From Flavobacteriaceae bacterium (GTDB lineage: Bacteria > Bacteroidota > Bacteroidia > Flavobacteriales > Flavobacteriaceae), in assembly GCA_002702875.1 (NCBI GenBank), contig PACV01000066.1, positions 1 through 42,405 of the forward strand: a DNA stretch of 42,405 nucleotides. The letters run 5' to 3'. The translations under genes were made by a program, and so were the position numbers. Below, one piece after another: positions 25,280-42,405 of this stretch (positions within the stretch are counted from its first letter, which is position 1; every line of letters begins with the position of its first letter). Below the pieces are notes generated by a model, which did not search any database, was not told the origin of the DNA, and saw nothing but the letters and a program-made list of their open reading frames with translations.

Positions 25280-25369
25280 ATAACAATTTAGTTATTATTA
25301 ATTATAAATTAAACTTTATTATTTTACAACTTTTATAATTTTGAAAGTGATAAAAATCCCAAACATTTG

Positions 25370-25377
25370 TACTTTTG
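25370..25377 (+). promoter_or_regulatory. -7 promoter element (TACTTTTG) for lpdA
   Basis: Exact TAnnTTTG match 13 bp before the ATG at 25391. The nearest upstream TTG (25341-25343) is 26 bp away, longer than the usual 17-23, so only the -7 half is convincing. Confidence 0.6.
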
Positions 25378-25390
25378 AAAAAAGTAATAT

Positions 25391-26794: not shown

Positions 26795-28084
26795 TTACTT
26801 TAACAAATTATAGTAATAATCAAATTTTTTTTCAATCATATCTAGTGATAAATTACCAATACTTCCTATGTGAGTATATTTTATTTTTTTTGGTTTTTTA
26901 TATTTCTTATTCTTAATTTCCTCACTAACAGAAAGATAACTTTCTCTAAATGTTTTACCTTTCAATACCTCGTGATTAATTTTCTCAACGCTGTTTATGT
27001 ATTTATATTTTTTTTGATTGAGTATTTTAGTTTTAATTTTAATTTGAGGAATCGAGTAAATAAACATTTCTAGACAATCTCTCAAATCATTAATTCCATC
27101 AATAATTGGTCCTTTTGTTAATTGAAAATCTCTATGATAACCACTTGGTAGATTTGTTGTAAGCAATGAAATTTGGTTTGGAATATTTTGAATTAAATTT
27201 GATTTTGCTCTTATTAACTCAAATATATCTGGATTTTGTTTATGTGGCATAATACTTGAACCTGTTAATAGATCACTAGGAAAAGAAATAAAATCAAAAT
27301 CTTGACCCATATATAGACATATATCCATAGACAACTTTGAAATTGTTGAAGCAATTAAACTAAGTGCCATAGAAGTTGATTTTTCAATTTTCCCTCTGCT
27401 AATTTGACAAGCCATTGAATTAACTTTTAAGAATTTAAATCCTAGTTTTTTTGTTGTATAAATTCTATCAATTGGAAAAGTAGAACCAAATCCAGCTGCA
27501 CTTCCAAGAGGATTTTGATTTACAACTTCAATTGCGGAGTTTAAAAAAATCAAATCATCAATTAATGATTCAGCATATGAGGAAAACCATAACCCAAATG
27601 AAGAGGGCATAGCAATTTGAAGATGAGAGTATCCGGGCATTAATTTATTTTTGTGATTCTTAGCTAGTGCAATTAAAATATTAAATAATTTTTTTAAATC
27701 AATTTTTATATCATTTAAAGAATCTAAAATAAAAAGCTGAATAGCAGCTAATACTTGATCATTTCTGGATCTAGATGTGTGTATTTTTTTTCCCGTGTCA
27801 CCTAGTTTTTCGGTTAGAAGAAATTCAATTTTAGAATGAACATCTTCAAATTCTTCACCAATATCAAATTCTTTATTATCAATATCTTTAATTATTTCAT
27901 TTAATACATTGTTTATTTTCTTTAGTTCACTTGTATTTAAAATTCCAATTTTTTTTAACATTGATGCATGAGCAATTGAAGCATGACAATCGAATTTTGC
28001 AATATTTAAGTCATATAATCTATCTTTTCCAACAGTGAATTTATCGACTTTTTTATTAAATTTTTGATTATTCCAAAGTTTCAT
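26795..28084 (-). CDS. argH: Argininosuccinate lyase
   Basis: 429 residues, a little shorter than the usual ~460. Superfamily signature GSSIMPHKQNP (275-285), TSRSRNDQ (103-110) and YSHLQIAMP with H154 are intact, so the active site looks complete. It splits argininosuccinate into arginine and fumarate, the last step of arginine synthesis. Last gene of the nine-gene operon, 6 bp after argE. The missing length is mainly at the C-terminus, where the tail is short and lysine-rich. Confidence 0.95.
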   Translation of the reverse strand: MKLWNNQKFNKKVDKFTVGKDRLYDLNIAKFDCHASIAHASMLKKIGILNTSELKKINNVLNEIIKDIDNKEFDIGEEFEDVHSKIEFLLTEKLGDTGKKIHTSRSRNDQVLAAIQLFILDSLNDIKIDLKKLFNILIALAKNHKNKLMPGYSHLQIAMPSSFGLWFSSYAESLIDDLIFLNSAIEVVNQNPLGSAAGFGSTFPIDRIYTTKKLGFKFLKVNSMACQISRGKIEKSTSMALSLIASTISKLSMDICLYMGQDFDFISFPSDLLTGSSIMPHKQNPDIFELIRAKSNLIQNIPNQISLLTTNLPSGYHRDFQLTKGPIIDGINDLRDCLEMFIYSIPQIKIKTKILNQKKYKYINSVEKINHEVLKGKTFRESYLSVSEEIKNKKYKKPKKIKYTHIGSIGNLSLDMIEKKFDYYYNLLK

Positions 28085-28090
28085 AATAGT

Positions 28091-29149
28091 TTAAAGTATT
28101 TCTTTTAAAAGTTTTATGTAGAGATCAATCCCAGTTTCAATTTCACTTAAATAAATAAATTCATTTGCTGTGTGAGATCTTTTTGAGTCGCCTGGTCCTA
28201 ATTTTATTGATGGAAAATTAAGTTTTGCCTGGTCTGATAGAGTAGGTGATCCATATTTCTCCATTCCTATTTTTGAAGCTGCCAAAACAATTCCGTGATT
28301 TTCATCTATTGATGAGGAATTTAAATCTAATGATCTAGATTCTATTCTGTAGGGTGAAGATTTTTTTATAATTTGAAGTATTTCAAGATTTGAATAACAA
28401 TCGTTGACTCTAATATCAACCACTAAATTTACATCTGATGGAACTACATTATGCTGAGAACCACCATTAACTTGAGTCACAGTTACTTTAACTGGCCCTA
28501 AAATTTTTGAAATTTTTTCAAACTTAAAATTTTTAAACCAATTTATAGCATCGGGTAATTTTTCAATTGCACTATCATTGTTTTCATGAGCAGCATGGCT
28601 TGGAGTTCCTTCAATGATTACATCTAATACAAGTAATCCCTTTTCAGCAATTGCTAATTTCATTTCAGTTGGTTCACCAACAATTGCAATATCAAGCTTA
28701 GGTAAATCAATCAATAAACTATTTAATCCCAAAGGTCCGGAACTTTCTTCCTCTGCTGTAGCAGCAATGATAATATTATATTTTAAATTCTCAACATTAT
28801 AGAAATATTTGAACGTTGAAATTAGAGAAACTAATGCTCCTCCTGCATCATTACTTCCTAGACCATATAATTTTCCATTTTCCACATGAGCTAAAAAGGG
28901 ATCTTTAGTGTAAGCTTTATTCGGGAGCACAGTGTCGTGATGAGAATTTAATAAAAGGGTAGGTTTCTTCTTATCAAATTTTTTATTTAATGCAAACACA
29001 TTATTATTTTTTCTATAACACTTAATTTTTCTATCATTAAACCAGTTTTGGATTGTATCAGCAGTTTTGTTTTCAGAACCTGAAAAAGATTTGATTGAGA
29101 TTAAATCTTTAAGTAGTTTAACAGCATCATTTACTATAATATTTTCCAT
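28091..29149 (-). CDS. argE: M20-family N-acyl-L-ornithine/citrulline deacylase
   Basis: 352 residues from the ATG at 29149, which leaves one base after the argB stop. An earlier in-frame start (29212) would add 21 residues of Lys/Leu-rich sequence that overlap argB and are not part of the fold, so I reject it. Di-zinc M20 motifs are present: HHD (about 70-72), D101 in GSNDAGG and EEE at about 133-135, with the dimerisation domain between. The enzyme removes the acyl group from the intermediate made by the carbamoyltransferase step. In this pathway that is N-acyl-citrulline, and if the carbamoyltransferase uses succinylornithine the true substrate is N-succinylcitrulline. The gene symbol follows common practice, not a tested substrate. 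Confidence 0.85.
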   Translation of the reverse strand: MENIIVNDAVKLLKDLISIKSFSGSENKTADTIQNWFNDRKIKCYRKNNNVFALNKKFDKKKPTLLLNSHHDTVLPNKAYTKDPFLAHVENGKLYGLGSNDAGGALVSLISTFKYFYNVENLKYNIIIAATAEEESSGPLGLNSLLIDLPKLDIAIVGEPTEMKLAIAEKGLLVLDVIIEGTPSHAAHENNDSAIEKLPDAINWFKNFKFEKISKILGPVKVTVTQVNGGSQHNVVPSDVNLVVDIRVNDCYSNLEILQIIKKSSPYRIESRSLDLNSSSIDENHGIVLAASKIGMEKYGSPTLSDQAKLNFPSIKLGPGDSKRSHTANEFIYLSEIETGIDLYIKLLKEIL

Positions 29150-29150
29150 T

Positions 29151-29930
29151 TTAAGATATAATTTTAGTGTATTTAATTTTATTTTTTTTATTAATAATTT
29201 GTGGAAGTCCAATAAAAATATTTTCTACGCCACTTTTTAAAGCTTTAAATGCATTTTCCAATTTGGGTATCATACCTTTTGATAAAATATTTTTTTTTAC
29301 AAGTTTTTTATATAGCTTAAAATCAATTAACTCAATAACTGATTCAGAATCATCAAGTTCTTTTAAAACACCCATTAATTCAAAACAAAAAAATAAGGAA
29401 ACCTTAAATTTTTCTGCTAAAGAACAAGCGATTTGAGTTGATATAGTATCAGCGTTTATATTTAAAACTTGACCCCTTTTATTGTGTGTCAAAGGAGAAA
29501 TTATTGGGGTATAATTGTTATCTAACAAAATATATATTAGATCTAAATTTATTTTTTTAATATCACCAACAAAACCAAAATCAATTTTTTTATTTTTTCT
29601 TTTTTCAGACTCTGTAATGTTTCCGTCAATTCCACTTAATCCAATAAAACTATCATTATATTTTTGCAATTTGCTAGTTAATTTTTTGTTAATTAAACCA
29701 CCATAGATACTGGTAACTACGTCAATTGTTTCCTCGTCGGTAATTCTCCTTCCGTTAACGAAATTAGGTTTAATATCCATCTTTTTTAACCATTTATCAC
29801 CTTCTTTACCTCCACCATGAACTAAAATTTTTTTGCCTTCTATCATTGCGAAGTTTTTAAGAAAATTGTCTAATTCAATATCATTTTCTAGAATTGACCC
29901 TCCGATTTTTATTATACTAAGAGATTCCAT
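29151..29930 (-). CDS. argB: Acetylglutamate kinase (N-acylglutamate kinase)
   Basis: 259 residues of the amino-acid kinase family. IIKIGGSIL (6-14), LVHGGGKEGD (about 37-46) and NGRRITDEETID (59-70) are the expected phosphate- and substrate-binding blocks. It phosphorylates N-acylglutamate with ATP in the second step of arginine synthesis. No long N-terminal extension or C-terminal regulatory part is visible, so the arginine-inhibited hexameric type is unlikely. The start overlaps the end of argF' by 14 bp, which suggests coupled translation. In Bacteroidota that use succinylated intermediates the kinase would act on N-succinylglutamate; that is inference. Confidence 0.92.
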   Translation of the reverse strand: MESLSIIKIGGSILENDIELDNFLKNFAMIEGKKILVHGGGKEGDKWLKKMDIKPNFVNGRRITDEETIDVVTSIYGGLINKKLTSKLQKYNDSFIGLSGIDGNITESEKRKNKKIDFGFVGDIKKINLDLIYILLDNNYTPIISPLTHNKRGQVLNINADTISTQIACSLAEKFKVSLFFCFELMGVLKELDDSESVIELIDFKLYKKLVKKNILSKGMIPKLENAFKALKSGVENIFIGLPQIINKKNKIKYTKIIS

Positions 29931-30867
29931 CTATTAAAAGTTTTATAACTGATTGCGCAGCAAATGTTCTATTATTTGCTTGTTGTATAACTAATGAATT
30001 CTTATTATCTAATACCTCATCAGATACAATAATATTTCTTCTAACTGGTAAGCAATGCATGAATTTTGCATTATTAGTTATTTTCATTTTTTCTTTTGTC
30101 AACATCCATTCATTGTCTGTTTTAAGAATTTGTCCATAATTTGAATATGAAGCCCAATTTTTTGCATAAACAAAGTCAGCATTTTCAAGTGCCTCACTTT
30201 GGTTGTATGTAATTTTCGCATTTTTTGTAATCCTTGAATCTAATTCATAACCTTCAGGTTGAGCAATGTAATAATCGGCATCAATATGATTTATCATTCT
30301 TGTGAAAGAATTACCAACTGCATGTGGAAGGGCTTTAGGGTGAGGAGCCCAAGTTAAAACAACTTTAGGTTTATGTTTTGGCATATTTTCTTTAATTGTA
30401 ATTGCATCTGCAATTGCTTGTAATGGATGACTTGTAGAACTTTCCATATTTAGGATTGGTTTTTTTGCATATTTTGAAAAACTATTTAAAACAATTTCAG
30501 CTTCATCTTTGTTTTTATCTGTCAAATTTGCAAATGCTCTTATCCCAATAATATCGCAATATTGAGATATAACTGCAGCTGCCTCTTTAACATGTTCTGA
30601 TCTTATACCACTCATTTTAGTACCGTCCTCAAACTCAAGTGCCCATGTTTCAGTCGATAAATTCATTACCATAATATTCAAACCGAGATTTTGAGCAGCT
30701 AATTGAGTGCTTAGTCTAGTTCTTAAACTTGGGTTGAAGAAAAGAAGGCCTATGGTTTTATTTTTCCCAATTCCATTATGAATAAACGGGTCAATTTTGT
30801 AAATAAGTGCGTTCTCAACACATTTTTTAAAATTTGGTAAATCATTAATTGTTATAAAATTTTTCAT
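29917..30867 (-). CDS. argF': N-succinylornithine carbamoyltransferase (ArgF')
   Basis: 316 residues. Carbamoyl-phosphate motif SLRTR (47-51), HPLQAIAD, and MHCLPVRRN near the C-terminus place it in the transcarbamylase family. It follows the Bacteroides fragilis succinylornithine enzyme closely (TWAPHPKALPHAV, PEGYELD, YAKNWASYSNYGQIL) and not the classical ornithine enzyme (no DxxxSMG loop). Residue 90, which decides the acyl group in this family (Glu in the Xanthomonas acetylornithine enzyme, Pro in the Bacteroides succinylornithine enzyme), is Ser here (GIRSEH). Small residues at this site go with succinylornithine. The enzyme makes N-acylcitrulline from N-acylornithine. It abuts argD (0 bp) and overlaps argB. 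Confidence 0.88.
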   Translation of the reverse strand: MKNFITINDLPNFKKCVENALIYKIDPFIHNGIGKNKTIGLLFFNPSLRTRLSTQLAAQNLGLNIMVMNLSTETWALEFEDGTKMSGIRSEHVKEAAAVISQYCDIIGIRAFANLTDKNKDEAEIVLNSFSKYAKKPILNMESSTSHPLQAIADAITIKENMPKHKPKVVLTWAPHPKALPHAVGNSFTRMINHIDADYYIAQPEGYELDSRITKNAKITYNQSEALENADFVYAKNWASYSNYGQILKTDNEWMLTKEKMKITNNAKFMHCLPVRRNIIVSDEVLDNKNSLVIQQANNRTFAAQSVIKLLIDGIS

Positions 30868-32001
30868 TTAATGTTTTTTTAATTCAATTTTTAGAGCTTT
30901 AAAAAAAATGTCAATATGTTCTTTTTTTATTGTTAAAGGCGGTAATATTCTTATCAATTTTTTGTTGCTACTTCCTCCAGTGAAAATTTTGTGATCATAT
31001 ATTAGTTTTTTTCTTAATTCTGCAACTTCGAAGTTAAATTCTAGACCCAACATTAGACCTCTACCTTTTACATTTTTTATTTTATCAATTTTTTTAGCTT
31101 TATTAATAAAATAATCACCTACCACTTTTGCATTTTCCATTAAATTATTTTCTTTAATTTGGTGCAAAACTGACAAACTAGCTGCACAAGCCAAATGGTT
31201 CCCTCCATATGTAGTTCCTAACATTCCATATTTTGGTTTAATTTTTCTATTAATTAAAACACCACCAACAGGAAAACCGTTCCCCATACCCTTAGCTAGA
31301 GTAATAATGTCAGGTGCTATTTTAAATTTTTGAAAACCAAAAAAGTCACCTGATCTACCAAAACCTGATTGAACCTCGTCAGCAATAAGACAAACATCAT
31401 ATTTTTTACACAATTTGTATAAGTTATTTATAAATTCCTCATCGGGCTGATCTAACCCACCAACACCTTGAATTGACTCAAATATAACTGATGACACATC
31501 ATTTTTTTCCAATTCAATTTTAACTTTATCGATTTCATTAAAAGGTAAAAAAGTTACCTTTTGCTGAGAATTTATTGGAGCAACAATATTTGGATTATCT
31601 GTTGCTGCAACTGCCGCACTGGTTCTACCGTGAAAAGCATTTTTGAAAGAAATTATTCTAGATTTATTATTATAAAATGAAGCTAATTTAATAGCATTTT
31701 CGTTTGCTTCAGCTCCAGAACTACACATAAATAGGCTATAATTATTACAATTCGATGCATTAGCTAATTTTACTGCTAATTCATTCTGTAATGGGTTTTT
31801 TATGGCATTAGAGTAAAATCCAATTTTATTTATTTGATCAACTATAGATTTGATATAATATTTATTTCCGTGGCCAATAGAAATGACAGCATGTCCTCCA
31901 TAGAGGTCTAAATATTTATTTTGATTTTCATCAAAAACAAATACGTCTTTTGCTTTACTAGGAGTTACTTCATATAAGGGATAGACATCAAATAAATTCA
32001 T
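30868..32001 (-). CDS. argD: N-acylornithine aminotransferase (class III, PLP)
   Basis: 377 residues. PLP-binding block TLAKGMGNGFPVGG with lysine K237, IADEVQSGFGRSG (about 206-218) with the conserved Asp, and SSGAEANENAIKLA (about 94-107) for the phosphate group. FHGRT is at about 123-127. It moves an amino group from glutamate to N-acylglutamate semialdehyde to give N-acylornithine. In this operon it precedes argF' with no spacer and follows proC by 3 bp. Class III enzymes with acetyl- and succinylornithine activity are hard to tell apart, so the acyl group cannot be read from this protein. Confidence 0.92.
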   Translation of the reverse strand: MNLFDVYPLYEVTPSKAKDVFVFDENQNKYLDLYGGHAVISIGHGNKYYIKSIVDQINKIGFYSNAIKNPLQNELAVKLANASNCNNYSLFMCSSGAEANENAIKLASFYNNKSRIISFKNAFHGRTSAAVAATDNPNIVAPINSQQKVTFLPFNEIDKVKIELEKNDVSSVIFESIQGVGGLDQPDEEFINNLYKLCKKYDVCLIADEVQSGFGRSGDFFGFQKFKIAPDIITLAKGMGNGFPVGGVLINRKIKPKYGMLGTTYGGNHLACAASLSVLHQIKENNLMENAKVVGDYFINKAKKIDKIKNVKGRGLMLGLEFNFEVAELRKKLIYDHKIFTGGSSNKKLIRILPPLTIKKEHIDIFFKALKIELKKH

Positions 32002-32004
32002 ATA

Positions 32005-32799
32005 CTATTTTTTTGACATTTCATTTATTTTTTCAAATGAGGCAACTAACCCCTGAATTATAGAGGAACTCAAACCTTTATGTTCCATTTCATTTAAACC
32101 TTTAATAGTACATCCATTAGGGGTTGTGACTTTATCTATTTCTTTCTCAGGATGAGAATTATTTTCTAAAAGTAAACTTGAAGCACCAAGTGCTGTAAAT
32201 GTTGACATTTTCATAGCTTCACTGGCTTCAAAACCGAGTTGGATACCGCCTTGAGTCATTGCTCTGATTATTCTCATCCAAAATGCAATACCGCTTGCAC
32301 ATAATACAGTTGCAGCTTGCATATCATTTTCTTTAATAATTATCGAGTTCCCTAACCCATTAAAAATTGCAGAGGCAATATCAATTCTTTTTTTACCAAT
32401 TTCATTACTACATAAACATGTCATTGATTTCCCAACTGAAATTGCTGTATTTGGCATAGATCTGATTATTGGTATTTTATTTCCAATAACACTCTCAATT
32501 CTATTTATATGAAAACCAGTTATAGTTGAAATAATTATGTGCTTATTTGTCAAATGAGTATTTATCTCATTTAAAATTTCTTCAAATTGATTCGGTTGAA
32601 CTGAAAAAATTAATATGTCAGATTTTTTAACTGCTTCAATATTATTTTTAGTAACAGTTACATACTTGTTTTCACTCCACTCTTCAATTGACTCAATATT
32701 TCTTTTAGTAAGATACAAAGAAGTTATAGTGTTGTTAATTATTAAACCTTGAGCTATGCTTAATCCAAGATTTCCTGTTCCAATTATTGCTATTTTCAT
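32005..32799 (-). CDS. proC: Pyrroline-5-carboxylate reductase
   Basis: 264 residues. N-terminal Rossmann motif IGTGNLGLSIAQGL (6-19), SVQPNQFEEIL, IIRSMPNTAISVGK (the family's core), and the C-terminal dimer signature LCASGIAFWMRIIRAMTQGG, then STFTALGASSLLLENNSHPE and TPNGCTIKGLNEMEH. It reduces pyrroline-5-carboxylate to proline with NADPH. Placement inside the arginine operon is seen in other Flavobacteriia and links proline and arginine synthesis, which share glutamate-derived semialdehydes. The open question is whether it also makes or drains ornithine-derived pyrroline-5-carboxylate. Confidence 0.9.
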   Translation of the reverse strand: MKIAIIGTGNLGLSIAQGLIINNTITSLYLTKRNIESIEEWSENKYVTVTKNNIEAVKKSDILIFSVQPNQFEEILNEINTHLTNKHIIISTITGFHINRIESVIGNKIPIIRSMPNTAISVGKSMTCLCSNEIGKKRIDIASAIFNGLGNSIIIKENDMQAATVLCASGIAFWMRIIRAMTQGGIQLGFEASEAMKMSTFTALGASSLLLENNSHPEKEIDKVTTPNGCTIKGLNEMEHKGLSSSIIQGLVASFEKINEMSKK

Positions 32800-32811
32800 A
32801 ATAATTAATTT

Positions 32812-33786
32812 TTAAAAAATTGATCCTTTAAATTTCAAACCCAAACTTTCATCCCAGTTCATTAATAAATTTGTATTCTGAATTGCTTGACCAGAAGCTC
32901 CTTTGATTAAATTGTCAATTATTGAAGTAATTAATAGTTTATCTTCATGTTTGTGTAGGTGAATATGACAATTATTTGTATTGACAACTTGTTTCAAGAA
33001 AATTTCATTTTTAGAAATTTTAACAAACGGATCACCTTTATAGTAATCACTATACAAATCAAATGCTTTGTCAATACTATCATTAAAATTCGTATAAGCC
33101 GTTGAAAAAATACCTCTTGTAAAGTTACCTCTAATTGGGATAAAGTTGATTTTTACTTCATTTCCATTTAAAAAATTAAGTGTTTGATTAATTTCACTTA
33201 AATGTTGGTGAGTAAATACTTTATACCAAGAAAGGTTATTGTTTCTTTGACTAAAATGTGATGTGCTACTTAATCCAACTCCGGCTCCTGTACTGCCAGT
33301 AATAGAATTCACATGAATTTCATCACAAATTAATTTTGAATATGCTAATGGTAAAATTGCAAGTTGAATGGATGTTGCAAAGCAACCAGGATTGGCAATA
33401 TTATTTGAATTTTTCAATTTACTTTTTTGAAATTCTGGCAAACCATAAGTAAAAATTCTATCCTTAAATTTAGAAAATTCATTTAATCTAAAATCATGAC
33501 TTAAGTCAATTACTTTTGTCTTAGGGTTCAAAACATTTTTTTCTAAAAATTTTTTTGAATTTCCATGACCAAGACATAAGAATAGTAAATCAACATCATC
33601 ATTAATTGAATCAGTGAATTTTAAATTTGATTCTCCAATTAAGTCATAATGAGCATCTTCTATTTTCTTTCCCGATTTAGTTGAGCTATACACATATTTT
33701 AATCTTAAATTAGGATGTCTAAGAATTATTCTAATTAACTCACCTCCAGTGTATCCAGAACCACCAATTACTCCAACACTTTTCAT
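32812..33786 (-). CDS. argC: N-acyl-gamma-glutamyl-phosphate reductase
   Basis: 324 residues. NADP-binding GGSGYTGGELIRI (8-20) and the catalytic cysteine C135 in ANPGCFATSIQLA are both present; HLSEINQTL and FIPIRGNFTRGI follow as expected. It reduces the acylglutamyl phosphate made by ArgB to the semialdehyde in the cytoplasm. The start overlaps argG by 4 bp (ATGA), and proC follows after 12 bp. Length and motifs are those of the standard bacterial enzyme; acyl preference cannot be judged. Confidence 0.94.
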   Translation of the reverse strand: MKSVGVIGGSGYTGGELIRIILRHPNLRLKYVYSSTKSGKKIEDAHYDLIGESNLKFTDSINDDVDLLFLCLGHGNSKKFLEKNVLNPKTKVIDLSHDFRLNEFSKFKDRIFTYGLPEFQKSKLKNSNNIANPGCFATSIQLAILPLAYSKLICDEIHVNSITGSTGAGVGLSSTSHFSQRNNNLSWYKVFTHQHLSEINQTLNFLNGNEVKINFIPIRGNFTRGIFSTAYTNFNDSIDKAFDLYSDYYKGDPFVKISKNEIFLKQVVNTNNCHIHLHKHEDKLLITSIIDNLIKGASGQAIQNTNLLMNWDESLGLKFKGSIF

Positions 33787-34973
33787 TTTTTATTTGAATT
33801 TTTTAAATTAAAAATTTTACCAGTATTACTAATTATTTTAATAAATCCCTTTACATCATTTGAACTCCAACCGTTGTTCATTTCACCATAAACCCCTAAT
33901 GAGTTATTCATTAAATCATTATTAGATGAAATTCCTTCAAGCTCAAATCTGTACGGACTCAATTTTATGGAAACTTTTCCAGTTACATTTTTTTGACTAC
34001 TAATTAAAAAAGATTCTATATCTCTCATAACTGGGTCAAGATAATTTCCCTCATGTAATAACATACCATAGAAATCAGCCACTTGTTTTTTTTGAAATTG
34101 TTGCCATTTTGAAAGAGTATGCTTTTCAAGTAAATGGTGGGATTTAATAATTATAATTGGAGCTGCAGCTTCAAACGCAACTCTTCCTTTTATTCCAATA
34201 ATTGTATCTCCAACGTGAGTATCTCTTCCAATTGCAAATTTTTCAGAAATTGATTGTAAGTAATTTATTAAATTAACAGGATTATCAGCTAATCCATTAA
34301 CTTCTACCAACTCTCCTTTATTAAAACTTAAGCTAATATTTTTTGATTTTTTTTCTTTTAATTGATTAGGAAATGCAATTTCAGGTAAAGTTTTGTTTGA
34401 GTGTAAAGTTTCATCACCACCAATTGTTGTTCCCCATAACCCTTTATTAATTGAATATTTTCCTTTTTCCCATGAAATATCTATTCCATTTTGCTTAAGA
34501 TAATTGATTTCCTCTTCTCTTGTTAATGAATTATCTCTTATTGGTGTTATAATTTTTATATCAGGAGCAAGAGTTTGAAATATTAAATCAAATCTAATTT
34601 GGTCATTTCCAGCACCAGTACTTCCATGTGCAATGTATTTTATGTTATTTTTATTTGCATAATTAATTAATTCAATCGCTTGAATAACTCTTTCAGCACT
34701 AACTGATAAAGGATAGGTTTCATTTTTAAGGATATTTCCAAACACTAAAAATCTAATTACCTTATTATAATAATTATCAAGCCCATTTAAACTAGTATAT
34801 TTTGTTGCTCCAATTTTAAGCGCATTGTCTTGTTGGTTTTTGATTTCTTGATCATTAAATCCTCCAGTATTAACACTTACAGCATGAACTTCAAATCCAT
34901 CTTTTGATAATTTTTTTAGGCAATAAGAAGTATCTAAACCACCACTGTAGGCAAGCACAAGTTTTTTTTTCAT
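33783..34973 (-). CDS. argG: Argininosuccinate synthase
   Basis: 396 residues. ATP-pyrophosphatase loop YSGGLDTS (9-16), AHGSTGAGNDQIRFDL and KGLWGTTIGGDE are clear. It joins citrulline and aspartate with ATP. The operon places it before argC, though its reaction is later. The GNAT gene ends one base before its start, so translation of the two is close-coupled. The C-terminal part has the expected family strands, with no sign of truncation. Confidence 0.95.
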   Translation of the reverse strand: MKKKLVLAYSGGLDTSYCLKKLSKDGFEVHAVSVNTGGFNDQEIKNQQDNALKIGATKYTSLNGLDNYYNKVIRFLVFGNILKNETYPLSVSAERVIQAIELINYANKNNIKYIAHGSTGAGNDQIRFDLIFQTLAPDIKIITPIRDNSLTREEEINYLKQNGIDISWEKGKYSINKGLWGTTIGGDETLHSNKTLPEIAFPNQLKEKKSKNISLSFNKGELVEVNGLADNPVNLINYLQSISEKFAIGRDTHVGDTIIGIKGRVAFEAAAPIIIIKSHHLLEKHTLSKWQQFQKKQVADFYGMLLHEGNYLDPVMRDIESFLISSQKNVTGKVSIKLSPYRFELEGISSNNDLMNNSLGVYGEMNNGWSSNDVKGFIKIISNTGKIFNLKNSNKK

Positions 34974-34974
34974 A

Positions 34975-35502
34975 CTAATTTATTTTAGGTTCATATAACA
35001 TTCCAGTACATAAACACATTTTTCTGTCAGTTCTAGTTAAAATGTCATAATTTTTACACGTTTGACAACCTTTCCAAAAAGAAGGATCATCAGTTAATTG
35101 AGAAAAATTAACAGGTTTGTAACCTAGCTCATAATTGATTTTCATAACTGCCATACCAGTTGTAATTCCAAAAATTTTAGCTTTTGGGTATATTTTTTTT
35201 GACAAATTAAAGACCTTTTTCTTTATTTTTTTAGCTAAACCTAAACCTCTATACTCTGGAGCAACAATAAGCCCTGAGTGTGCAACATATTTACCTTCTC
35301 CCCAAACCTCAATATAACAAAACCCAGCAAATTTATTATAATTTGTAGCAATAACAGCATTTCCGCTTTTAATTTTGTTCAAAATGTAAACAGGGCTTCT
35401 TCTTGCAATACCTGTTCCCCTGACCTTAGCAGAATCATCTATGCATTTACTTATTTCATTCGCAAAATGTGTATGCTTTATACTTGCAATAATAATTTTC
35501 AT
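34975..35502 (-). CDS. GNAT acyltransferase with C-terminal Cys pairs; candidate first enzyme of arginine synthesis
   Basis: 175 residues, ATG start. The acetyltransferase core is visible: FAGFCYIEVWGEGKYVAHSG (substrate strands), VAPEYRGLGLAKKIKKKVF (acyl-CoA pyrophosphate loop, about 80-98) and ITTGMAVMKINYELGY. The C-terminus adds four cysteines (C146, C149, C163, C165; CxxC then CxC), a likely metal site not present in normal GNATs. It heads the arginine operon, and no other argA or argJ gene lies in the window. Relatives in Flavobacteriia are often annotated as N-acetyltransferase or ArgA-like. Because the carbamoyltransferase looks succinyl-type, this enzyme may use succinyl-CoA to make N-succinylglutamate. 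That is inference: no residue I can see decides acetyl versus succinyl. Confidence 0.75.
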   Translation of the reverse strand: MKIIIASIKHTHFANEISKCIDDSAKVRGTGIARRSPVYILNKIKSGNAVIATNYNKFAGFCYIEVWGEGKYVAHSGLIVAPEYRGLGLAKKIKKKVFNLSKKIYPKAKIFGITTGMAVMKINYELGYKPVNFSQLTDDPSFWKGCQTCKNYDILTRTDRKMCLCTGMLYEPKIN

Positions 35503-35535
35503 TATTGATTAATTAATATTAAATAAAATTGAATA

Positions 35536-35544
35536 TGTGGATAA
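35536..35544 (-). promoter_or_regulatory. Perfect DnaA box (TTATCCACA on the minus strand)
   Basis: TGTGGATAA on the plus strand is a 9/9 match to the consensus DnaA box. Bases 35542-35550 (TAAACCACA) are a 7/9 match in the opposite direction, so both lie in the inverted repeat TGTGG-ATAAA-CCACA. One perfect 9-mer is expected about 0.5 times per 42 kb at this base composition, so on its own it is weak. Confidence 0.4.
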
Positions 35545-35688
35545 ACCACAGGTGATATATTAACCCCTAAGGGGACGAACGAAACGAGTAAACTCAAGGT
35601 TGAGAGTTTGTAAAAAATTTAAAAATGTTATTATTTCTTTTTTCATTTCATTACAAAATTGGTACATTTTATTTACATATACAAGTAA

Positions 35689-35719
35689 AAAAATCTTTTT
35701 TTAGATTTTTCAAAAAATC
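35689..35719 (+). promoter_or_regulatory. Mutually exclusive hairpins just upstream of tilS
   Basis: AAAAATCT (35689-35696) can pair with AGATTTTT (35703-35710), or GATTTTT (35704-35710) can pair with AAAAATC (35713-35719). The two pairings share the middle segment. They lie upstream of the -7 element, so they may act as DNA and not as RNA. Confidence 0.25.
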
Positions 35720-35726
35720 AATGTAT

Positions 35727-35734
35727 TAAATTTG
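35727..35734 (+). promoter_or_regulatory. -7 promoter element (TAAATTTG) for tilS
   Basis: Exact TAnnTTTG match ending 4 bp before the ATG at 35739. Transcription would begin at or next to the start codon, so the mRNA may be leaderless. Confidence 0.5.
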
Positions 35735-35738
35735 TGCT

Positions 35739-37034
35739 ATGATAAAAGAATTTCAGAGAATTATTTTAAATGAATTCATTGAATTAAAAACAAGCAAGTT
35801 TTTGTTAGCAGTCAGTGGTGGAATAGATAGTATGGTTCTTGCAAATCTTTTTTATAAACTTAAATATAATTTTGAGATGGCACACTGCAATTTTAATCTC
35901 AGAGGAGATGACAACATAAAAGATGAACTTCTTGTTAAAAAATTTGCTAATCAAAAAGAAATTAAACTTTCAATTAAAAAATTTGAGACTCTAAATTATG
36001 TTGAATCTAAAAAAATTTCAATCCAAATTGCTGCAAGAGAATTGAGATACCAATGGTTTTTTGATTTAATGAAAACTGATAAAATAAAATATCTAGTTAC
36101 AGCTCACAATTTAAATGATCAATTTGAGACAATATTAATAAATATATCCAGAGGTACTGGTTTTGACGGTATAACTGGCATGAATTATAAGAGTAATAAA
36201 ATTTTTAGACCACTTATTTCCTTTACAAGAAGTCAAATTGAGAAATATGCTATCGAGAATAAAGTTGATTGGAGAGAGGATTCATCGAATTTAAGCAATA
36301 AATATTTAAGGAATTTCATTAGAAATAACATTTTAAAAAAATGGATGAAATATGATAATGATTTATTTATAAATTTTAAAACTACAGTTAAAAACTTAAA
36401 TCTTGCAAAAGATGTTTTAAAAAATAACTTAATTAATTGGAAAAAAAATAATTTTAAAAAAAATGAAAATTTTATCATCATATCTACAAATGAATTATCC
36501 AAATTAAATCCTTTAAATTTTTTTTTATTTGAACTATTTAAGGATTATGGATTTAAGAATACCAAAGATTTAGTTAACATACTTGAGTCCAATTCAGGAA
36601 AAAAGTTAATTTCAGATACACATATATTACTTAAAGATAGAAATCAATTGATTTTGCAAAAAAAAGAAAAGTCACAAAAAAATCAATTTTATTGGGATGG
36701 ATTTTCGAAAGATTTATCCCCCTTAAATCTTAAAATTGTCAAAAGTGATAGTTATGATAGAAATCATATAGTTTTAGATAATGATAAGTTAAAATTCCCT
36801 TTGGAAATAAGAAAGTGGAAAAATGGTGATTATTTTTACCCCGATGGAATAGAAGGGAAAAAGAAAGTTAGTAAATATTACAAGGATTCGAAACTGAATC
36901 TATTTCAAAAAGAAGCTCAATGGTTGTTATGTTCAAATAATAAAATTGTTTGGATTGTTGGGTTGAGAGGAGATAGACGATTTAAATTTAAATCTAATAG
37001 TAAAAATAAAATAATCATAAAATGTACTGTGTAA
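35739..37034 (+). CDS. tilS: tRNA(Ile)-lysidine synthase
   Basis: 431 residues. N-type ATP-pyrophosphatase loop AVSGGIDSMVL (about 24-34), AHCNFNLRGDD and VTAHNLNDQFETIL are the family's core motifs. The C-terminal domain follows, with LEIRKWKNGDYFYPDGIEGKKKVSKYY and DSKLNLFQKEAQWLL, which binds the tRNA acceptor end. It changes C34 of the CAU-anticodon tRNA-Ile to lysidine so that it reads AUA; AUA is a common codon in a genome this A/T-rich. A tilS-dsbD pair is formed by a 13-bp overlap with the next gene. Confidence 0.93.
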   Translation: MIKEFQRIILNEFIELKTSKFLLAVSGGIDSMVLANLFYKLKYNFEMAHCNFNLRGDDNIKDELLVKKFANQKEIKLSIKKFETLNYVESKKISIQIAARELRYQWFFDLMKTDKIKYLVTAHNLNDQFETILINISRGTGFDGITGMNYKSNKIFRPLISFTRSQIEKYAIENKVDWREDSSNLSNKYLRNFIRNNILKKWMKYDNDLFINFKTTVKNLNLAKDVLKNNLINWKKNNFKKNENFIIISTNELSKLNPLNFFLFELFKDYGFKNTKDLVNILESNSGKKLISDTHILLKDRNQLILQKKEKSQKNQFYWDGFSKDLSPLNLKIVKSDSYDRNHIVLDNDKLKFPLEIRKWKNGDYFYPDGIEGKKKVSKYYKDSKLNLFQKEAQWLLCSNNKIVWIVGLRGDRRFKFKSNSKNKIIIKCTV

Positions 37035-38971
37035 GAGTATTTCTTTTATTTTTTGTATTCCTTTCATTCACCCTTCAAGGTCAAGAGCCTGTTAGTTGGT
37101 CAAATTCTATTGAAAAAATCTCTGAAAATAAATACAAACTTATATTTGATGCAAAAATTGAAAAGGGATGGTATTTGTATTCAACAAAAAAAATAAAAGA
37201 TGGACCTATTCCAACATCTTTTAATTATACTATAGATTCCACAAAAATAATTTTTAAAGATGTTATTCCAAGAAGGACACCCAATGAGGAATATGACAAA
37301 TTTTTTGAAATTGACTTAGAGTTTTTTGAAAAAAATATTGGTTTTGAACAAAGTATTGAAATTAATTCAAATGGCGTAGACTACATTAACGGTTATATTG
37401 AATTTCAGACTTGTAACGATGAGATTTGTCTTTTTAGAACTAAAGAATTTTATTTTCCGTTAGTTGAAAATGCAAAGCAAATCTATGAAAAGATAACTTT
37501 GTCAGATAGGGATGTTTTTTTAAGTGATAAAATTGATTTAAAAATAGAGGACAAATCTTTACTTAAAAAAGAATCCATCAGATCTGGTTTTTATGAATAC
37601 TTAAATCTTTTTGTTTTAGGTTTCTTGGGTGGTTTAATTGCGCTTTTGACTCCATGTATTTTTCCAATGATTCCATTAACTGTGTCATTTTTTATAAAAA
37701 ATTCAAATGGAAACGGCATTAGCAATGCAATTTTGTATGGTTTTTTTATTGTTTTGATTTACATTTTGTTAAGTGCACCCTTTCATTTATTTGATTTTAT
37801 AAACCCCCAAATTTTAAATAACCTTTCAACTAATGTTACAGTGAATATTTTATTCTTTTTAATTTTTATATTTTTTGCTTTTTCTTTCTTTGGATTTTAT
37901 GATATATCACTTCCATCTTCCTGGTCTAATAAAACAGATTCATTTTCATCAAATAATTTCATAGGAATATTTTTTATGGCTTTAACCCTTGCAATTGTTT
38001 CTTTTTCCTGCACAGGACCAATACTAGGATCACTTTTAGTTGGTTCTATAACAAATGAAAGTAATCCAATTGAGCTTACTTTAGCAATGTCAGGTTTTGG
38101 ATTTGCTTTAGCCTTGCCATTTTCAATTTTATCAGTTTTCCCTAGTATTTTATCTAAAATCCCATCCTCTGGAATATGGATGAAAAACATAAAAGTTATT
38201 CTTGGTTTTCTTGAATTAGCTTTAGCATTTAAATTTTTATCTAATGCTGATTTAGTGAGTCACTGGAATATTTTACCTAGAGAAATATTTATTTTTATAT
38301 GGTTTTTGCTTGCAATCTTAATATCTCTATACCTTTTTGGAGTTTATAAGTTTCCCGGTGAGAAAAAAAGATCTATTAATCTTAGTCAAAAAGTTTCAGG
38401 ATCAATGTTTTTTGTTATATCACTTTGGATTTTGTCAGGGTTAAACTACAATTTTAATGAAATGAAAATTCTTAGTGGATTATTACCTCCCAAATTCTAT
38501 AGTATTAATTCAGACGAAAATGATTGTCCTTTAAATTTAAATTGTTATAAGGAATTTGATGAAGGAAGAAAAATTTCTGAAGTCGAAAATAAACCAATTT
38601 TATTAGATTTTACAGGCTGGGCATGCGTTAATTGTAGAAAGATAGAACAAAATGTTTGGTCTATTAAAAAAATATATGATTTAATATCAAATGAATTTAT
38701 TTTGATTTCTCTTTATGTTGATGACAGAAAAAGGCTTTTAGATGAGGAACAATTTGTGTATAAATTCAAAAATGGAAAAATAAAAAATATTAAAACAATT
38801 GGCGATAAATGGTCAACTTTTCAAGCAATAAACTTTTCATCAGCATCTCAACCTTATTACATCTTGTTATATCCTGACGGTAAAATAATTAATTCTCCAA
38901 TTCAATATACTGATAGTGAAACATACTATAATTGGTTAAAAGAGGGCTTAGATAAATTTAAAACTAAATAA
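37022..38971 (+). CDS. dsbD: DsbD-like thiol:disulfide interchange protein
   Basis: 649 residues. Signal peptide (to about 20), N-terminal alpha-like domain with C131 and C136 (QTCNDEIC), then eight membrane helices with paired cysteines C212 (LTPCIFPMIPLT) and C330 (FSCTGPILGS), then a C-terminal thioredoxin domain with C535-V-N-C538 in TGWACVNCRKIE. All three redox pairs of DsbD are therefore present. It carries electrons from cytoplasmic thioredoxin to the periplasm for disulfide isomerisation and cytochrome c assembly. The ATG start lies inside tilS. The sequence near 500-515 adds two more cysteines (DCPLNLNC) between the membrane and thioredoxin parts. Confidence 0.92.
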   Translation: MYCVRVFLLFFVFLSFTLQGQEPVSWSNSIEKISENKYKLIFDAKIEKGWYLYSTKKIKDGPIPTSFNYTIDSTKIIFKDVIPRRTPNEEYDKFFEIDLEFFEKNIGFEQSIEINSNGVDYINGYIEFQTCNDEICLFRTKEFYFPLVENAKQIYEKITLSDRDVFLSDKIDLKIEDKSLLKKESIRSGFYEYLNLFVLGFLGGLIALLTPCIFPMIPLTVSFFIKNSNGNGISNAILYGFFIVLIYILLSAPFHLFDFINPQILNNLSTNVTVNILFFLIFIFFAFSFFGFYDISLPSSWSNKTDSFSSNNFIGIFFMALTLAIVSFSCTGPILGSLLVGSITNESNPIELTLAMSGFGFALALPFSILSVFPSILSKIPSSGIWMKNIKVILGFLELALAFKFLSNADLVSHWNILPREIFIFIWFLLAILISLYLFGVYKFPGEKKRSINLSQKVSGSMFFVISLWILSGLNYNFNEMKILSGLLPPKFYSINSDENDCPLNLNCYKEFDEGRKISEVENKPILLDFTGWACVNCRKIEQNVWSIKKIYDLISNEFILISLYVDDRKRLLDEEQFVYKFKNGKIKNIKTIGDKWSTFQAINFSSASQPYYILLYPDGKIINSPIQYTDSETYYNWLKEGLDKFKTK

Positions 38972-38983
38972 AAAAATCAAACT

Positions 38984-39706
38984 TTATTTTTCAAAATATA
39001 CATGTTTTAGTGGAACTCTATATCTAAGACCATAAATTCCGTTTTCACTTCTTATACCACATCCAATTACCATACAAATTTCACTATTTTTTGGTAAGTT
39101 TAAATACTTTTTTAATAAGTCTGAGTCAAATCCTTCCATAGGGCATGTATCATAACCATATGCAGACATACTTATCATAAAATTTTGTGCTGCAAGTGCA
39201 GTACTTTTATGCCCAGCAATTCTTTTGTCAATATATGTAACTTGTTTATTGGCAGGTTTGTATAAGCCAATTATTTTTGATTTTATTAATTTTAAAAAAC
39301 CCAATATTCCAAAAAAATCGGAATAGACGTTTGGTATAGTTTTTTCATAGTAATTAATTGCTCCAATAATTTTTTTGGAATTAAGGTCTTTTGGATTATT
39401 TTTTTTTATAAAATTTGAGTTCATTTTAGCTCGTGATCTCCATAGTTTTCTTCTAACAACAGCAATAACAATTTGTTGTGATGTTTTGGCAGCTGGTTGA
39501 TTAAAACATGCATATGAAATTTGCTTAAGTTTTTTTGGTGATGTAATATGATAGAATTCCCATAATTGTAAGTTATCACTACTAGGAGCTAATATTGCTT
39601 GTTCTATACATTTTTTAACAATTTTTTTATCAATTTTTTTATTAGAATCATAAACTCTAACTGCCCTTCTAAAATTTATAGCTTCACTAACTTTTTTTTC
39701 TTTCAT
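38984..39706 (-). CDS. Nitroreductase-family flavoprotein
   Basis: 240 residues, longer than the usual ~200. Typical opening NFRRAVRVYDSNKKI (FMN-binding Arg) and ILAPSSDNLQLWEF (about 38-51), then KSTALAAQNFMISMSAYGYDTCPMEGFD and VIGCGIRS at the C-terminus. An insert of about 50 residues (about 100-155) is basic and partly hydrophobic. It probably uses FMN and NAD(P)H to reduce nitro, quinone or enone compounds. The substrate is unknown. The start overlaps the aldehyde dehydrogenase stop by one base (TAATG), so the two are co-transcribed. Confidence 0.85.
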   Translation of the reverse strand: MKEKKVSEAINFRRAVRVYDSNKKIDKKIVKKCIEQAILAPSSDNLQLWEFYHITSPKKLKQISYACFNQPAAKTSQQIVIAVVRRKLWRSRAKMNSNFIKKNNPKDLNSKKIIGAINYYEKTIPNVYSDFFGILGFLKLIKSKIIGLYKPANKQVTYIDKRIAGHKSTALAAQNFMISMSAYGYDTCPMEGFDSDLLKKYLNLPKNSEICMVIGCGIRSENGIYGLRYRVPLKHVYFEK

Positions 39707-41076
39707 TAAATTTTGTTTAAAATTGATTTTATTAAATTGAATTTATTAGGGTATGGAGGAAATCTCAACCATATATCTTTAAAAAAGGGCTTTTTAACAA
39801 TAGATTTAAAATGGGTAAATGTATTAAAACTATGTTTGCCGTGATAGGAACCTGTTCCACTTTCTCCAATTCCTCCAAAAGGAAGCTTATCATTTAAAAA
39901 TTGAATTATTGTGTCATTAATGCAAGCTCCACCGAAAGAATATTTTTTTAAAATCTCATCTATGAATTTTTTGTTTTTTGAGAAAATATAAAATGCTAAC
40001 GGATTATTGTTTTTACTTAAAATATTATGTAAATCTGAACTATTATTATAAGATAAAATAGGTAGTATTGGTCCAAAAATTTCTGTTTTCATTACCTTAC
40101 TTTCTAAATTAGGATCAATGACGATTGTAGGCTCAAGATATTTAGCTTTATAATTAATTTTTCCTCCAATAATATTTTTTTCTTTTTTCAAGTATGATTC
40201 TAATCTTTTGAGATGTTTTTCATTAATTATCCTTCCATAGGAACTTGAATTCTGGGGATTTTTCCCAAAAGAAATTTCAATTTCATATTTAATTTTTTCA
40301 ATTAGTTTTTCCAAAATTAACTTATTTACAACAATAAAATCTGGTGCAATACATGTTTGACCACAATTTAAAAATTTACCCCAAACAATTCTTTTAGCAG
40401 TCATGCCTATTGGTACAGTTTCGTCTACAATACAAGGGTTTTTTCCACCTAGTTCAAGAGTGTAAGGTGTTAATTTATTTGCAGCTTTTGATGCAACAAT
40501 TTTTCCAATTTCAGTGCTCCCAGTAAAAAAAATATAGTCCCATTTGTATTCCAGTAATTCTGATGCCACTTCTTTATTTCCTAAAATGACTTCAACATGT
40601 TCTTGGTTGAAACTTTCATTAATAATTTTTTTTATAAGTTTAGATGTATGAGGAGAATTTTCTGAAGGTTTTAAAACAACTGTATTTCCAGCACCAACAG
40701 CACCTATTAGTGAATTAAGAGATAATTGAAAAGGATAATTCCATGGACTAATATGAAGCGTTAAACCATAAGGTTCTGGTGTCAAATAATCTTTTGAATA
40801 GAAGTTTAATATTGATGACTTTACTTTTTTTGTTTTGCTCCAACTTGAAATATTCTTAATAAAATATTTTATTTCTTTTTTTACTAAATAGACCTCCGAA
40901 ACGAAAGATTCAAATTTATGTTTATTCAAATCATTTTTCAAACAATCGTATATCTCGTTTTCGTATTTTTCAATATTAATCAAAAGTTTTTTTAAACTTT
41001 TTTTTCTAAATTCGATAGATTTAGTAACCTGAGATTCAAAAAAAGATTTTTGATTTTGAATTAATTTGTTTATCAA
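39706..41076 (-). CDS. Aldehyde dehydrogenase (class 3-like)
   Basis: 456 residues, the length of class 3 (ALDH3-like) enzymes. The catalytic cysteine is in NCGQTCIAPDF and the general base in YTLELGGKNPC; the NAD-binding segment FTGSTEIGKIVA and PWNYPFQLSLNSLIGAVGAG are typical. The C-terminal part (NDTIIQFLNDKLPFGGIGESG) is complete. It oxidises aldehydes to acids with NAD(P)+, perhaps in lipid-aldehyde detoxification. The start is TTG at 41076; the conserved N-terminus (QKSFFESQVTKSIEFRKK) begins within 10 residues, so no later start fits. First gene of the pair with the nitroreductase. Confidence 0.9.
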   Translation of the reverse strand: MINKLIQNQKSFFESQVTKSIEFRKKSLKKLLINIEKYENEIYDCLKNDLNKHKFESFVSEVYLVKKEIKYFIKNISSWSKTKKVKSSILNFYSKDYLTPEPYGLTLHISPWNYPFQLSLNSLIGAVGAGNTVVLKPSENSPHTSKLIKKIINESFNQEHVEVILGNKEVASELLEYKWDYIFFTGSTEIGKIVASKAANKLTPYTLELGGKNPCIVDETVPIGMTAKRIVWGKFLNCGQTCIAPDFIVVNKLILEKLIEKIKYEIEISFGKNPQNSSSYGRIINEKHLKRLESYLKKEKNIIGGKINYKAKYLEPTIVIDPNLESKVMKTEIFGPILPILSYNNSSDLHNILSKNNNPLAFYIFSKNKKFIDEILKKYSFGGACINDTIIQFLNDKLPFGGIGESGTGSYHGKHSFNTFTHFKSIVKKPFFKDIWLRFPPYPNKFNLIKSILNKI

Positions 41077-41193
41077 TTTTAATTTTTTTCTGTTAAGTTA
41101 ATATTTCTTTTTTTTTATGGAGGATGTCTAATTAATTAAAATTTAAATTAGATTATTTTTAATTTTTGAATGTTATAAATCTCAACATTACAA

Positions 41194-41229
41194 ATGCTTC
41201 AAATTCAGGTAATTATATTCTATATATAG
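41194..41229 (+). other. Possible 11-codon open frame rich in Ile/Leu/Val upstream of ilvD
   Basis: ATG at 41194 gives MLQIQVIIFYI then stop; six of the eleven residues are Leu, Ile or Val. It could be read as a branched-chain attenuation leader, but Ile codons are frequent in A/T-rich DNA. The best promoter element lies downstream of it and no classical terminator follows. I give it little weight. Confidence 0.15.
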
Positions 41230-41260
41230 TCTTTGAACTTAATTGCAAATTAAAAAACAA

Positions 41261-41281
41261 TTAAATTAAAATTTAATTTAA
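41261..41281. promoter_or_regulatory. 21-bp perfect A/T palindrome, candidate operator of ilvD
   Basis: TTAAATTAAA (41261-41270) and TTTAATTTAA (41272-41281) are exact inverted copies around a single A. The palindrome ends 2 bp before the -7 element, so a protein bound there would cover the promoter spacer. Confidence 0.35.
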
Positions 41282-41283
41282 CT

Positions 41284-41291
41284 TAAATTTG
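41284..41291 (+). promoter_or_regulatory. -7 promoter element (TAAATTTG) for ilvD
   Basis: Exact TAnnTTTG match 17 bp before the ATG at 41309, directly after the 21-bp palindrome. No -33 TTG at the usual distance. Confidence 0.5.
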
Positions 41292-41308
41292 AAAAAAGTA
41301 TTGTTTTT

Positions 41309-42405
41309 ATGGACTTGAAAAAATACAGTAAAGTTATTACTAAGGATCCATCTCATCCTGCAGCTAAAGCTATGCTTCATGCAATAGGAATGACTAAGAG
41401 TGACTTTGATAAGTCTTTAGTTGGAATAGCAAGTACAGGTTATGAAGGGAATCCGTGTAATATGCACTTAAATGAACTTTCAATTAAAATTAAGAAAGGT
41501 TTTAAATCTAATAACTCCGTACCATTAATTTTCAATACAATTGGGGTAAGTGATGGAATCTCTATGGGTACACCCGGTATGAGATATTCGTTACCATCTA
41601 GAGACATAATTGCAGATTCAATTGAAACTGTTGTTCAAGCAATGGCTTATGATGCTTTAATAACAGTAGTCGGTTGTGATAAAAATATGCCTGGTGCCCT
41701 AATGGCAATGCTAAGATTAAATAGACCTTCAATTCTTGTTTATGGTGGAACAATTGCTCCTGGTTGTCATAAAAATAAAAAATTAGATATAGTTTCAACC
41801 CTAGAGGCATGGGGGGAAAAAGTTGCTGGATTGATTAGTGACGAAGATTTTAATAGCATTGTTGAAAAAGCATGTCCTGGAGCAGGTGCATGTGGTGGCA
41901 TGTACACAGCCAATACCATGGCTTCAGCAATTGAGGCTTTAGGAATGGCATTACCTTACAATTCATCTAACCCTGCAATAAGTGATTCAAAAAAAAATGA
42001 ATGTGATGATGTTGCTTTTTATTTAGAAAATTTGATAAAAAATGATATAAAACCAAGAGATATTGTCAATAAAAAATCTTTAACTAATGCCATAAGGTTA
42101 ATTGCAGTACTTGGAGGATCAACTAACGCAGTATTACATTTTCTAGCAATTGCCAATGCAGCAAAATTAGACTTTACAATTGATGATTTTCAAAAGATAA
42201 TGGATAGTACGCCACTTTTGGCTGATTTAAAACCAAGTGGAAGATATGTAATGGAAGATCTTCATAAGGTAGGTGGAGTTCCAGCAGTTTTAAAATTTAT
42301 GTTAGAAAACAATATTATTGATGGAGATTGTTTAACTGTTACTGGAAAGACAATTAAAGAAAATTTAAAAAGTCTAAGTGGGTTATCTAAAGACCAAGAT
42401 ATAAT
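41309..42405 (+). CDS. ilvD: Dihydroxy-acid dehydratase (5' part, cut by window edge)
   Basis: 365 codons are visible and the frame is open to the window end; the full enzyme is about 560 residues. Iron-sulfur cysteines are present in GNPCN (C50), VGCDKNMPGA (C123) and GACGGMYTANTM (C195), so the cluster site is complete. It makes 2-oxo acids for valine, leucine and isoleucine from dihydroxy acids. The rest of the ilv operon should follow to the right. ATG start at 41309. The 232 bp upstream hold the palindrome, the -7 element and the small open frame listed separately. Confidence 0.95.
   Translation, partial: MDLKKYSKVITKDPSHPAAKAMLHAIGMTKSDFDKSLVGIASTGYEGNPCNMHLNELSIKIKKGFKSNNSVPLIFNTIGVSDGISMGTPGMRYSLPSRDIIADSIETVVQAMAYDALITVVGCDKNMPGALMAMLRLNRPSILVYGGTIAPGCHKNKKLDIVSTLEAWGEKVAGLISDEDFNSIVEKACPGAGACGGMYTANTMASAIEALGMALPYNSSNPAISDSKKNECDDVAFYLENLIKNDIKPRDIVNKKSLTNAIRLIAVLGGSTNAVLHFLAIANAAKLDFTIDDFQKIMDSTPLLADLKPSGRYVMEDLHKVGGVPAVLKFMLENNIIDGDCLTVTGKTIKENLKSLSGLSKDQDI

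Follow-up and report, generated by a model that had tools for sequence, protein, structure and literature searches.

Which enzyme opens arginine synthesis in Bacteroidota whose pathway appears to run through succinylated intermediates is the question raised by an operon on a 42,405-nucleotide contig from a Flavobacteriaceae genome bin (PACV01000066.1; the whole contig is called the window here). ArgJ supplies this step in other bacteria. A reading from the sequence alone had singled out the first gene of the operon, a GNAT-type acyltransferase with a cysteine-rich tail, as a candidate N-succinylglutamate or N-acetylglutamate synthase, and had held that such an assignment would be of value. We put at about 85% the probability that this protein catalyses the opening step of succinylated arginine synthesis in Bacteroidota, with succinyl-CoA as the most likely source of the succinyl group and with a metal site in its tail that is most likely structural zinc. 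The assignment is thus supported; its novelty is not, as publications with genetic evidence had earlier proposed this function for the relatives known as BT3761 and ArgA2 (available passages of PMC7311316 and PMC9026213), and the window gene mainly adds one more ordinary member to an enzyme family that is already known. The parts of most bench interest are the four-cysteine site and a P-loop protein found in genomes that have no such GNAT (see below), the window gene itself being of modest interest.

The arginine operon and its leading gene

The gene has an ATG start, encodes 175 amino acids and heads a compact minus-strand operon with the order GNAT-argG-argC-proC-argD-argF'-argB-argE-argH, in which argE denotes an M20 deacylase and argG, starting at 34973, follows the GNAT stop codon after a single base (Table 1). 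The later steps of arginine synthesis that had been read from the sequence are indeed present: argG, argC, argD, argF', argB, the argE-like gene and argH were all matched by Pfam or NCBIfam models, with TIGR00032 on argG scoring 258.0 bits, under its cut-off of 268.2. The model NF003384, over its cut-off on argF', bears the name N-acetylornithine carbamoyltransferase, and the start of the M20 deacylase is an ATG at 29149 that was picked by eye, the listed open reading frame beginning with TTG at 29212. As Pfam gave no acetyltransferase family match for the other eight operon proteins, the GNAT is the only acyltransferase of the operon, in agreement with the sequence-only reading. A search for an RNA leader returned nothing over the Rfam gathering score in 24000-42405. 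A hairpin-like stretch, CTCAA-GG-TTGAG, was seen by eye at 35593-35604, between the GNAT gene and the divergently oriented tilS; it is probably due to chance, since it is absent from the seven inverted repeats listed for this intergenic gap and has no Rfam match.

Table 1. Features of the window operon and of the P-loop protein found elsewhere (window positions unless a locus is named)
Feature	Position	Strand	Basis
GNAT acyltransferase, ArgA2/BT3761 family, candidate N-succinylglutamate synthase	34975..35502	-	ORF, Pfam, homologues, predicted fold
R85-G-L-G88-L-A90 loop	35233..35250	-	sequence and conservation
C146-x2-C149, first half of the four-cysteine tail	35056..35067	-	sequence and conservation
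C163-x-C165, second half of the four-cysteine tail	35008..35016	-	sequence and conservation
argG, argininosuccinate synthase	33783..34973	-	PF00764 and PF20979 over cut-off
argC, N-acylglutamyl-phosphate reductase	32812..33786	-	TIGR01850 over cut-off
proC, pyrroline-5-carboxylate reductase	32005..32799	-	TIGR00112 over cut-off
argD, N-acylornithine aminotransferase	30868..32001	-	PF00202 over cut-off; TIGR00707 below cut-off
argF', N-succinylornithine-type carbamoyltransferase	29917..30867	-	NF003384 over cut-off; Ser90, codon 30598-30600
argB, N-acylglutamate kinase	29151..29930	-	TIGR00761 and PF00696 over cut-off; no GNAT model
M20 deacylase (argE-like), candidate N-succinylcitrulline desuccinylase	28091..29149	-	PF01546/PF07687 over cut-off; TIGR01910 below
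argH, argininosuccinate lyase	26795..28084	-	TIGR00838 over cut-off
P-loop protein	L178:12089-13183	-	
P-loop protein	L181:5211-6299	+	
P-loop protein	G030:C1:3174675-3175700		

The sole Pfam model over its cut-off on the GNAT protein is the general GNAT model, Acetyltransf_1 (24.1 bits, cut-off 20.7), and NCBIfam lists, at E 0.1, a single model, which reaches 25.9 bits where its cut-off is 154. The R85-G-L-G88-L-A90 stretch, which we take to be the acyl-CoA pyrophosphate loop typical of GNATs, has R85 and G88 invariant among 122 distinct homologue strings. The nearest named relatives belong mostly to Flavobacteriaceae bins, single cells and isolates, so that the source of the window is probably an uncultured bacterium of this family. 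A viral collection yielded a single relative, on a 348-kb contig.

An AlphaFold2 model of the protein, built from 46 aligned sequences (that of the window and those of related loci), has a mean pLDDT of 91.8. When 1000 PDB chains were realigned to it by VIA-align 2, the best match was the N-acetylglutamate synthase (NAGS) of N. gonorrhoeae (2r8v; Z 17.7, rmsd 2.5, 150 aligned), followed by Rv2747 of M. tuberculosis (5yo2; Z 16.2, rmsd 2.3, 147 aligned), and Foldseek alone likewise placed 5yo2 and 2r8v on top. The chain 5yge (Z 15.8) ties with Ard1 N-terminal acetyltransferases (15.8), and rows 2-16, which lie within 1 Z, are a mixture of NAGS, Ard1 and other GNATs; the predicted fold shared with N-acetylglutamate synthases does not by itself show function. 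The nearest solved relative by sequence was only PA4794 (32.7 bits, E 5.7e-7 in a profile search), which is not an N-acetylglutamate synthase, and therefore no close solved structure of this family was found.

Co-occurrence with the carbamoyltransferase and the acyl donor

Neither an argJ nor a classical argA gene turned up in the window bin (1.7 Mb, 91.7% complete): PF01960 gave no ArgJ match there, the same search finding ArgJ in 10 of 14 control genomes, and no classical ArgA was found over the cut-off, the two TIGR01890 matches (58.3 and 37.1 bits vs a cut-off of 202.85) being argB kinases on contigs C13 and C25. At E 0.1, no TIGR01890 match was listed for the GNAT protein.

The ArgA search covered the window bin, and the ArgJ and ArgF' searches covered 198 Bacteroidota genomes. 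GNAT homologues were found in 83 of the 198 (best E-value per genome at most 8.4e-55) and ArgJ in 82, the two together in none, and NF003384-type carbamoyltransferases in 97, including all 83 GNAT genomes and no ArgJ genome; these counts come from related genomes, uncorrected for relatedness, and are not independent events. The carbamoyltransferase set comprises matches of at least 250 bits, the next two, in G172 (239.6) and G055 (237.6), being excluded; at E 1e-20 some carbamoyltransferase match is given by 189 of the 198 genomes, many of these being other carbamoyltransferases by score. The GNAT gene lies within 12 kb of the carbamoyltransferase gene in 73 of the 83 genomes, and farther away or on a different contig in the remaining 10. 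The first arg gene to follow the GNAT gene is argG in 79 of 80 named loci, the exception (L097) being a contig that stops 154 bases past the GNAT match, and the complete window gene order is seen in 53 of the 80.

Additional copies of the gene were also observed. Two genomes of one genus (G170 and G174) carry a second, diverged copy (L046:9169-9669 and L047:9575-10084, both on the minus strand), which is 50-51% identical, keeps all four cysteines of the tail and has none of the other eight operon genes within about 9 kb on either side. The window bin itself contains a second copy on contig C25 (G000:C25, L041:237-11180), where the run argE-argB-argF'-argD-proC-argC-argG-GNAT, tilS, dsbD repeats the window order, with identities to the window of 75% for the GNAT, 43% for tilS and 51% for dsbD; argH was not found on this 11.8-kb contig. 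C25 also has a higher G+C content (0.336) than the window (0.286), and six further stretches of the bin lie at 0.23-0.27. The idea that this genome carries two functional copies was rejected, since identities of 43-75% together with the higher G+C make mis-binning likely, and C25 is probably a mis-binned contig of a related species.

As to the acyl donor, evidence comes from the carbamoyltransferase. The nearest PDB relatives of the window enzyme are 1js1, 2g7m and 2fg6 (338-339 bits), which we take to be from Bacteroides fragilis, and the best N-acetylornithine enzyme scores 189. Position 90 is Ser in the window, Pro in 1js1 and 2fg6, and Glu in the 2g7m sequence, Glu being presumably the acetyl-type residue. 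The passages available of the GapMind paper (PMC7311316) associate S, P, A or V at this position with a preference for the succinyl substrate, and cite the B. fragilis carbamoyltransferase and ArgB as using succinylated substrates. The suggestion that the carbamoyltransferase is succinyl-specific is borne out by Ser90 under this rule and by its closest PDB relatives. Residue 90 is S in 46, A in 25 and Q in 1 of the 72 named loci (of 80) that hold the gene; A in 27 and S, T and V in 1 each of 30 loci from a carbamoyltransferase search; and S in 7, V in 1 and Q in 1 of 9 other loci, the two Q and the one T lying outside GapMind's succinyl list. The predominance of S and A, with no Glu among the 111 matches (some of which are one gene in two loci), favours a succinyl donor for the GNAT, as judged from this later enzyme.

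Two rival readings bear on these results. The GNAT may be the first enzyme and make N-acetylglutamate from acetyl-CoA, with succinylation entering elsewhere or with a pathway that tolerates both acyl groups. The nearest solved folds use acetyl-CoA, and Cabys_1732, to which BT3761 is more than 50% identical according to a passage of the GapMind paper (PMC7311316), is called an N-acetylglutamate synthase in the accessible text of PMC5317091, so this family may accept acetyl-CoA; Ser90, the lack of Glu among the 111 matches and the succinylated substrates reported for the two B. fragilis enzymes weigh against an acetyl donor here, which we regard as quite improbable. It would be more surprising still if the protein acetylated some other target, such as an operon enzyme or a ribosomal protein, and a different GNAT of the genome took the first step. 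Further GNATs do exist in the bin, PF00583 having 8 matches including the window and C25 copies, but the mutual exclusion with ArgJ, the full co-occurrence with the carbamoyltransferase, the position at the head of the operon and the arginine-specific mutant fitness of BT3761 (in the passages available of PMC7311316 and PMC9026213) make this explanation very hard to sustain.

We therefore infer that the GNAT is the first enzyme, on the grounds that it is the sole acyltransferase in an operon holding the later steps, that neither ArgJ nor ArgA was found in the bin, that it and ArgJ exclude each other among the genomes, that the carbamoyltransferase is of the succinyl type, that the predicted fold resembles NAGS and that BT3761 has the fitness phenotype just mentioned. 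In the proposed mechanism, acyl-CoA would be bound by the R85-x-x-G88 loop of the GNAT core, the acyl group, most likely succinyl, would be moved onto the amino group of L-glutamate, and ArgB, ArgC, ArgD, ArgF' and the M20 deacylase would then take the N-acyl intermediate to citrulline. The invariant residues R28, R35, T114 and N123 are candidates for holding the carboxylate of the succinyl group.

The four-cysteine tail and a P-loop protein in genomes without the GNAT

The protein contains cysteines at positions 20, 62, 146, 149, 163 and 165, the last four of which form the CxxC...CxC tail just as the sequence-only reading had described it. All four are kept in 121 of 121 non-redundant homologues (122 strings minus one contained duplicate; 50-100% identical to the window protein, itself included), and C62 in 115 and C20 in 14 of them. 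The set includes Bacteroides finegoldii, Parabacteroides distasonis, Phocaeicola massiliensis, Persicobacter psychrovividus and Bernardetia. C146 and C149 are part of one of the two patterns that define the 80 named loci, which therefore do not test this pair independently; a pattern-free whole-protein search, on the other hand, found the four cysteines kept in 30 of 30 loci from the 83 genomes, and a second one in all 5 records read of six. This invariance across the family, gut anaerobes included, is new in the present analysis, as is the P-loop protein described below, and no mention of the tail was found in the open-licence literature searched. As the existing NCBIfam and Pfam models are weak or general, the invariant tail also offers a handle for annotation.

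Bacteroides and Parabacteroides are anaerobes, and the conservation of CxxC and CxC alike in aerobes and anaerobes suggests that the tail binds a metal in a structural role, most likely zinc, which would hold the final helix and strand in place. The strict invariance of the cysteines would also suit a switch of the iron-sulfur, redox or disulfide kind that gates arginine synthesis. Such a switch is unlikely, however, since the cysteines are equally strict in Bacteroides/Parabacteroides and in Flavobacteriaceae, which is unexpected for a redox switch alone, and the local model confidence at residues 141-170 is high (pLDDT block means 87-93).

Fourteen of the 97 carbamoyltransferase genomes have neither the GNAT nor ArgJ, and in all 14 (L132-L138, L141-L143, L145-L147, L149) residue 90 of the carbamoyltransferase is Ala. 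A conserved P-loop protein of about 350 residues is encoded in each of the 14 and in one of the 83 GNAT genomes (G030), with E at most 5.4e-126 and 56-100% identity to the query, whose own genome is included; the match in G013 runs across one stop codon, and five further genomes of the 198 give distant matches (E 5.3e-13 to 7.5e-22). Between them, the GNAT (83) and the P-loop protein (the other 14) thus account for all 97 genomes. The P-loop gene lies between argG and argC in all 10 operons fetched of the 14 and in G030. An alignment of 13 sequences, not all independent, shows 112 invariant positions, including S159-G-T-x-M-x-T-G-K-T168, and no PDB relative was found at E 0.1.

Two known families were tried and rejected, one as first enzyme of these genomes and the other as a firm identity for the P-loop protein. 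NF003386, which we take to represent the bifunctional synthase-kinase of the Xanthomonas type, is over its cut-off in 0 of the 14, the matches lying within model positions 39-279 of 442. DgcN, of the DUF1611 family, has D-glutamate N-acetyltransferase activity, and its gene belongs to a D-glutamate racemisation pathway; PF07755 scores the P-loop protein at 19.1 and 20.3 bits (cut-off 25), mainly over the P-loop, a profile of the 13 P-loop sequences misses a true DUF1611 protein (E 0.14), and no link between DUF1611 and arginine was found in the literature searched. The P-loop protein is a candidate for an unrelated first enzyme in arginine synthesis, and an accessory or regulatory role is the alternative; the 14 genomes from which this evidence comes are related to one another. 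We tentatively suggest, at somewhat less than even odds, that the succinyl pathway has two unrelated first enzymes, the four-cysteine GNAT (probably with zinc) in most lineages and a P-loop N-succinylglutamate or other N-acylglutamate synthase in those that have no such GNAT. The P-loop gene makes the start of arginine synthesis in the GNAT-less genomes a directly testable question.

Comparison with known systems

No match to ArgJ (PF01960) was found in the window protein, in its bin or in the other 82 GNAT genomes. The classical ArgA of Neisseria (2r8v) and the short ArgA Rv2747 (5yo2, 5yge) share the GNAT fold with the window protein, to which they are 15-16% identical when aligned by structure. 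Neisseria ArgA carries an N-terminal amino-acid kinase domain, and the 2r8v match starts at chain residue 287, whereas the window protein is not such a kinase-GNAT fusion scoring over the TIGR01890 cut-off: it has no kinase domain in its 175 residues. Cabys_1732 of Caldithrix abyssi, compared by description, resembles the window gene in leading an arg locus, argAGCBEH, and differs in being called an N-acetylglutamate synthase isoform, a term based on "our unpublished results" (accessible text of PMC5317091).

The closest likeness is to BT3761 of Bacteroides thetaiotaomicron. Mutant fitness places BT3761 in arginine synthesis, as "probably N-succinylglutamate synthase" (passages available of GapMind, PMC7311316), and its family has been named ArgA2, proposed as N-succinylglutamate synthase and found together with the succinyl-type carbamoyltransferase in 190 Bacteroidetes genomes (passages available of PMC9026213). 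BT3761 does not occur in the main text of Price 2018 (PMC5764234), and no enzyme assay of it with either CoA was found in the open-licence literature searched. The window adds to this family, with its function proposed from genetics, an uncultured member that is probably marine, judging by the names of its relatives.

BT3761 was compared through a relative from B. finegoldii and through published descriptions. The B. finegoldii order is argR-GNAT-argG-argC-argD-proC, with a GNAT 53.5% identical over 98%, and it fits the numbering BT3761/BT3760/BT3758 in the available part of GapMind (PMC7311316). The argR gene stands directly before the GNAT gene at L198:11488-11961 in B. finegoldii and at L199:11514-11954 in Parabacteroides distasonis; both records are labelled plasmids and would be chromosome pieces by their gene content. 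The window gene shares with BT3761/ArgA2 a stand-alone GNAT (PF00583 over cut-off and the predicted fold), a place in an arg operon beside argG and before argG, argC, argD and proC, and the company of a succinyl-type ArgF' without ArgA or ArgJ. The B. finegoldii and Parabacteroides operons begin with argR, whereas argR is missing from the head of the window operon, which, unlike them, carries argF', argB, argE and argH in the same run.
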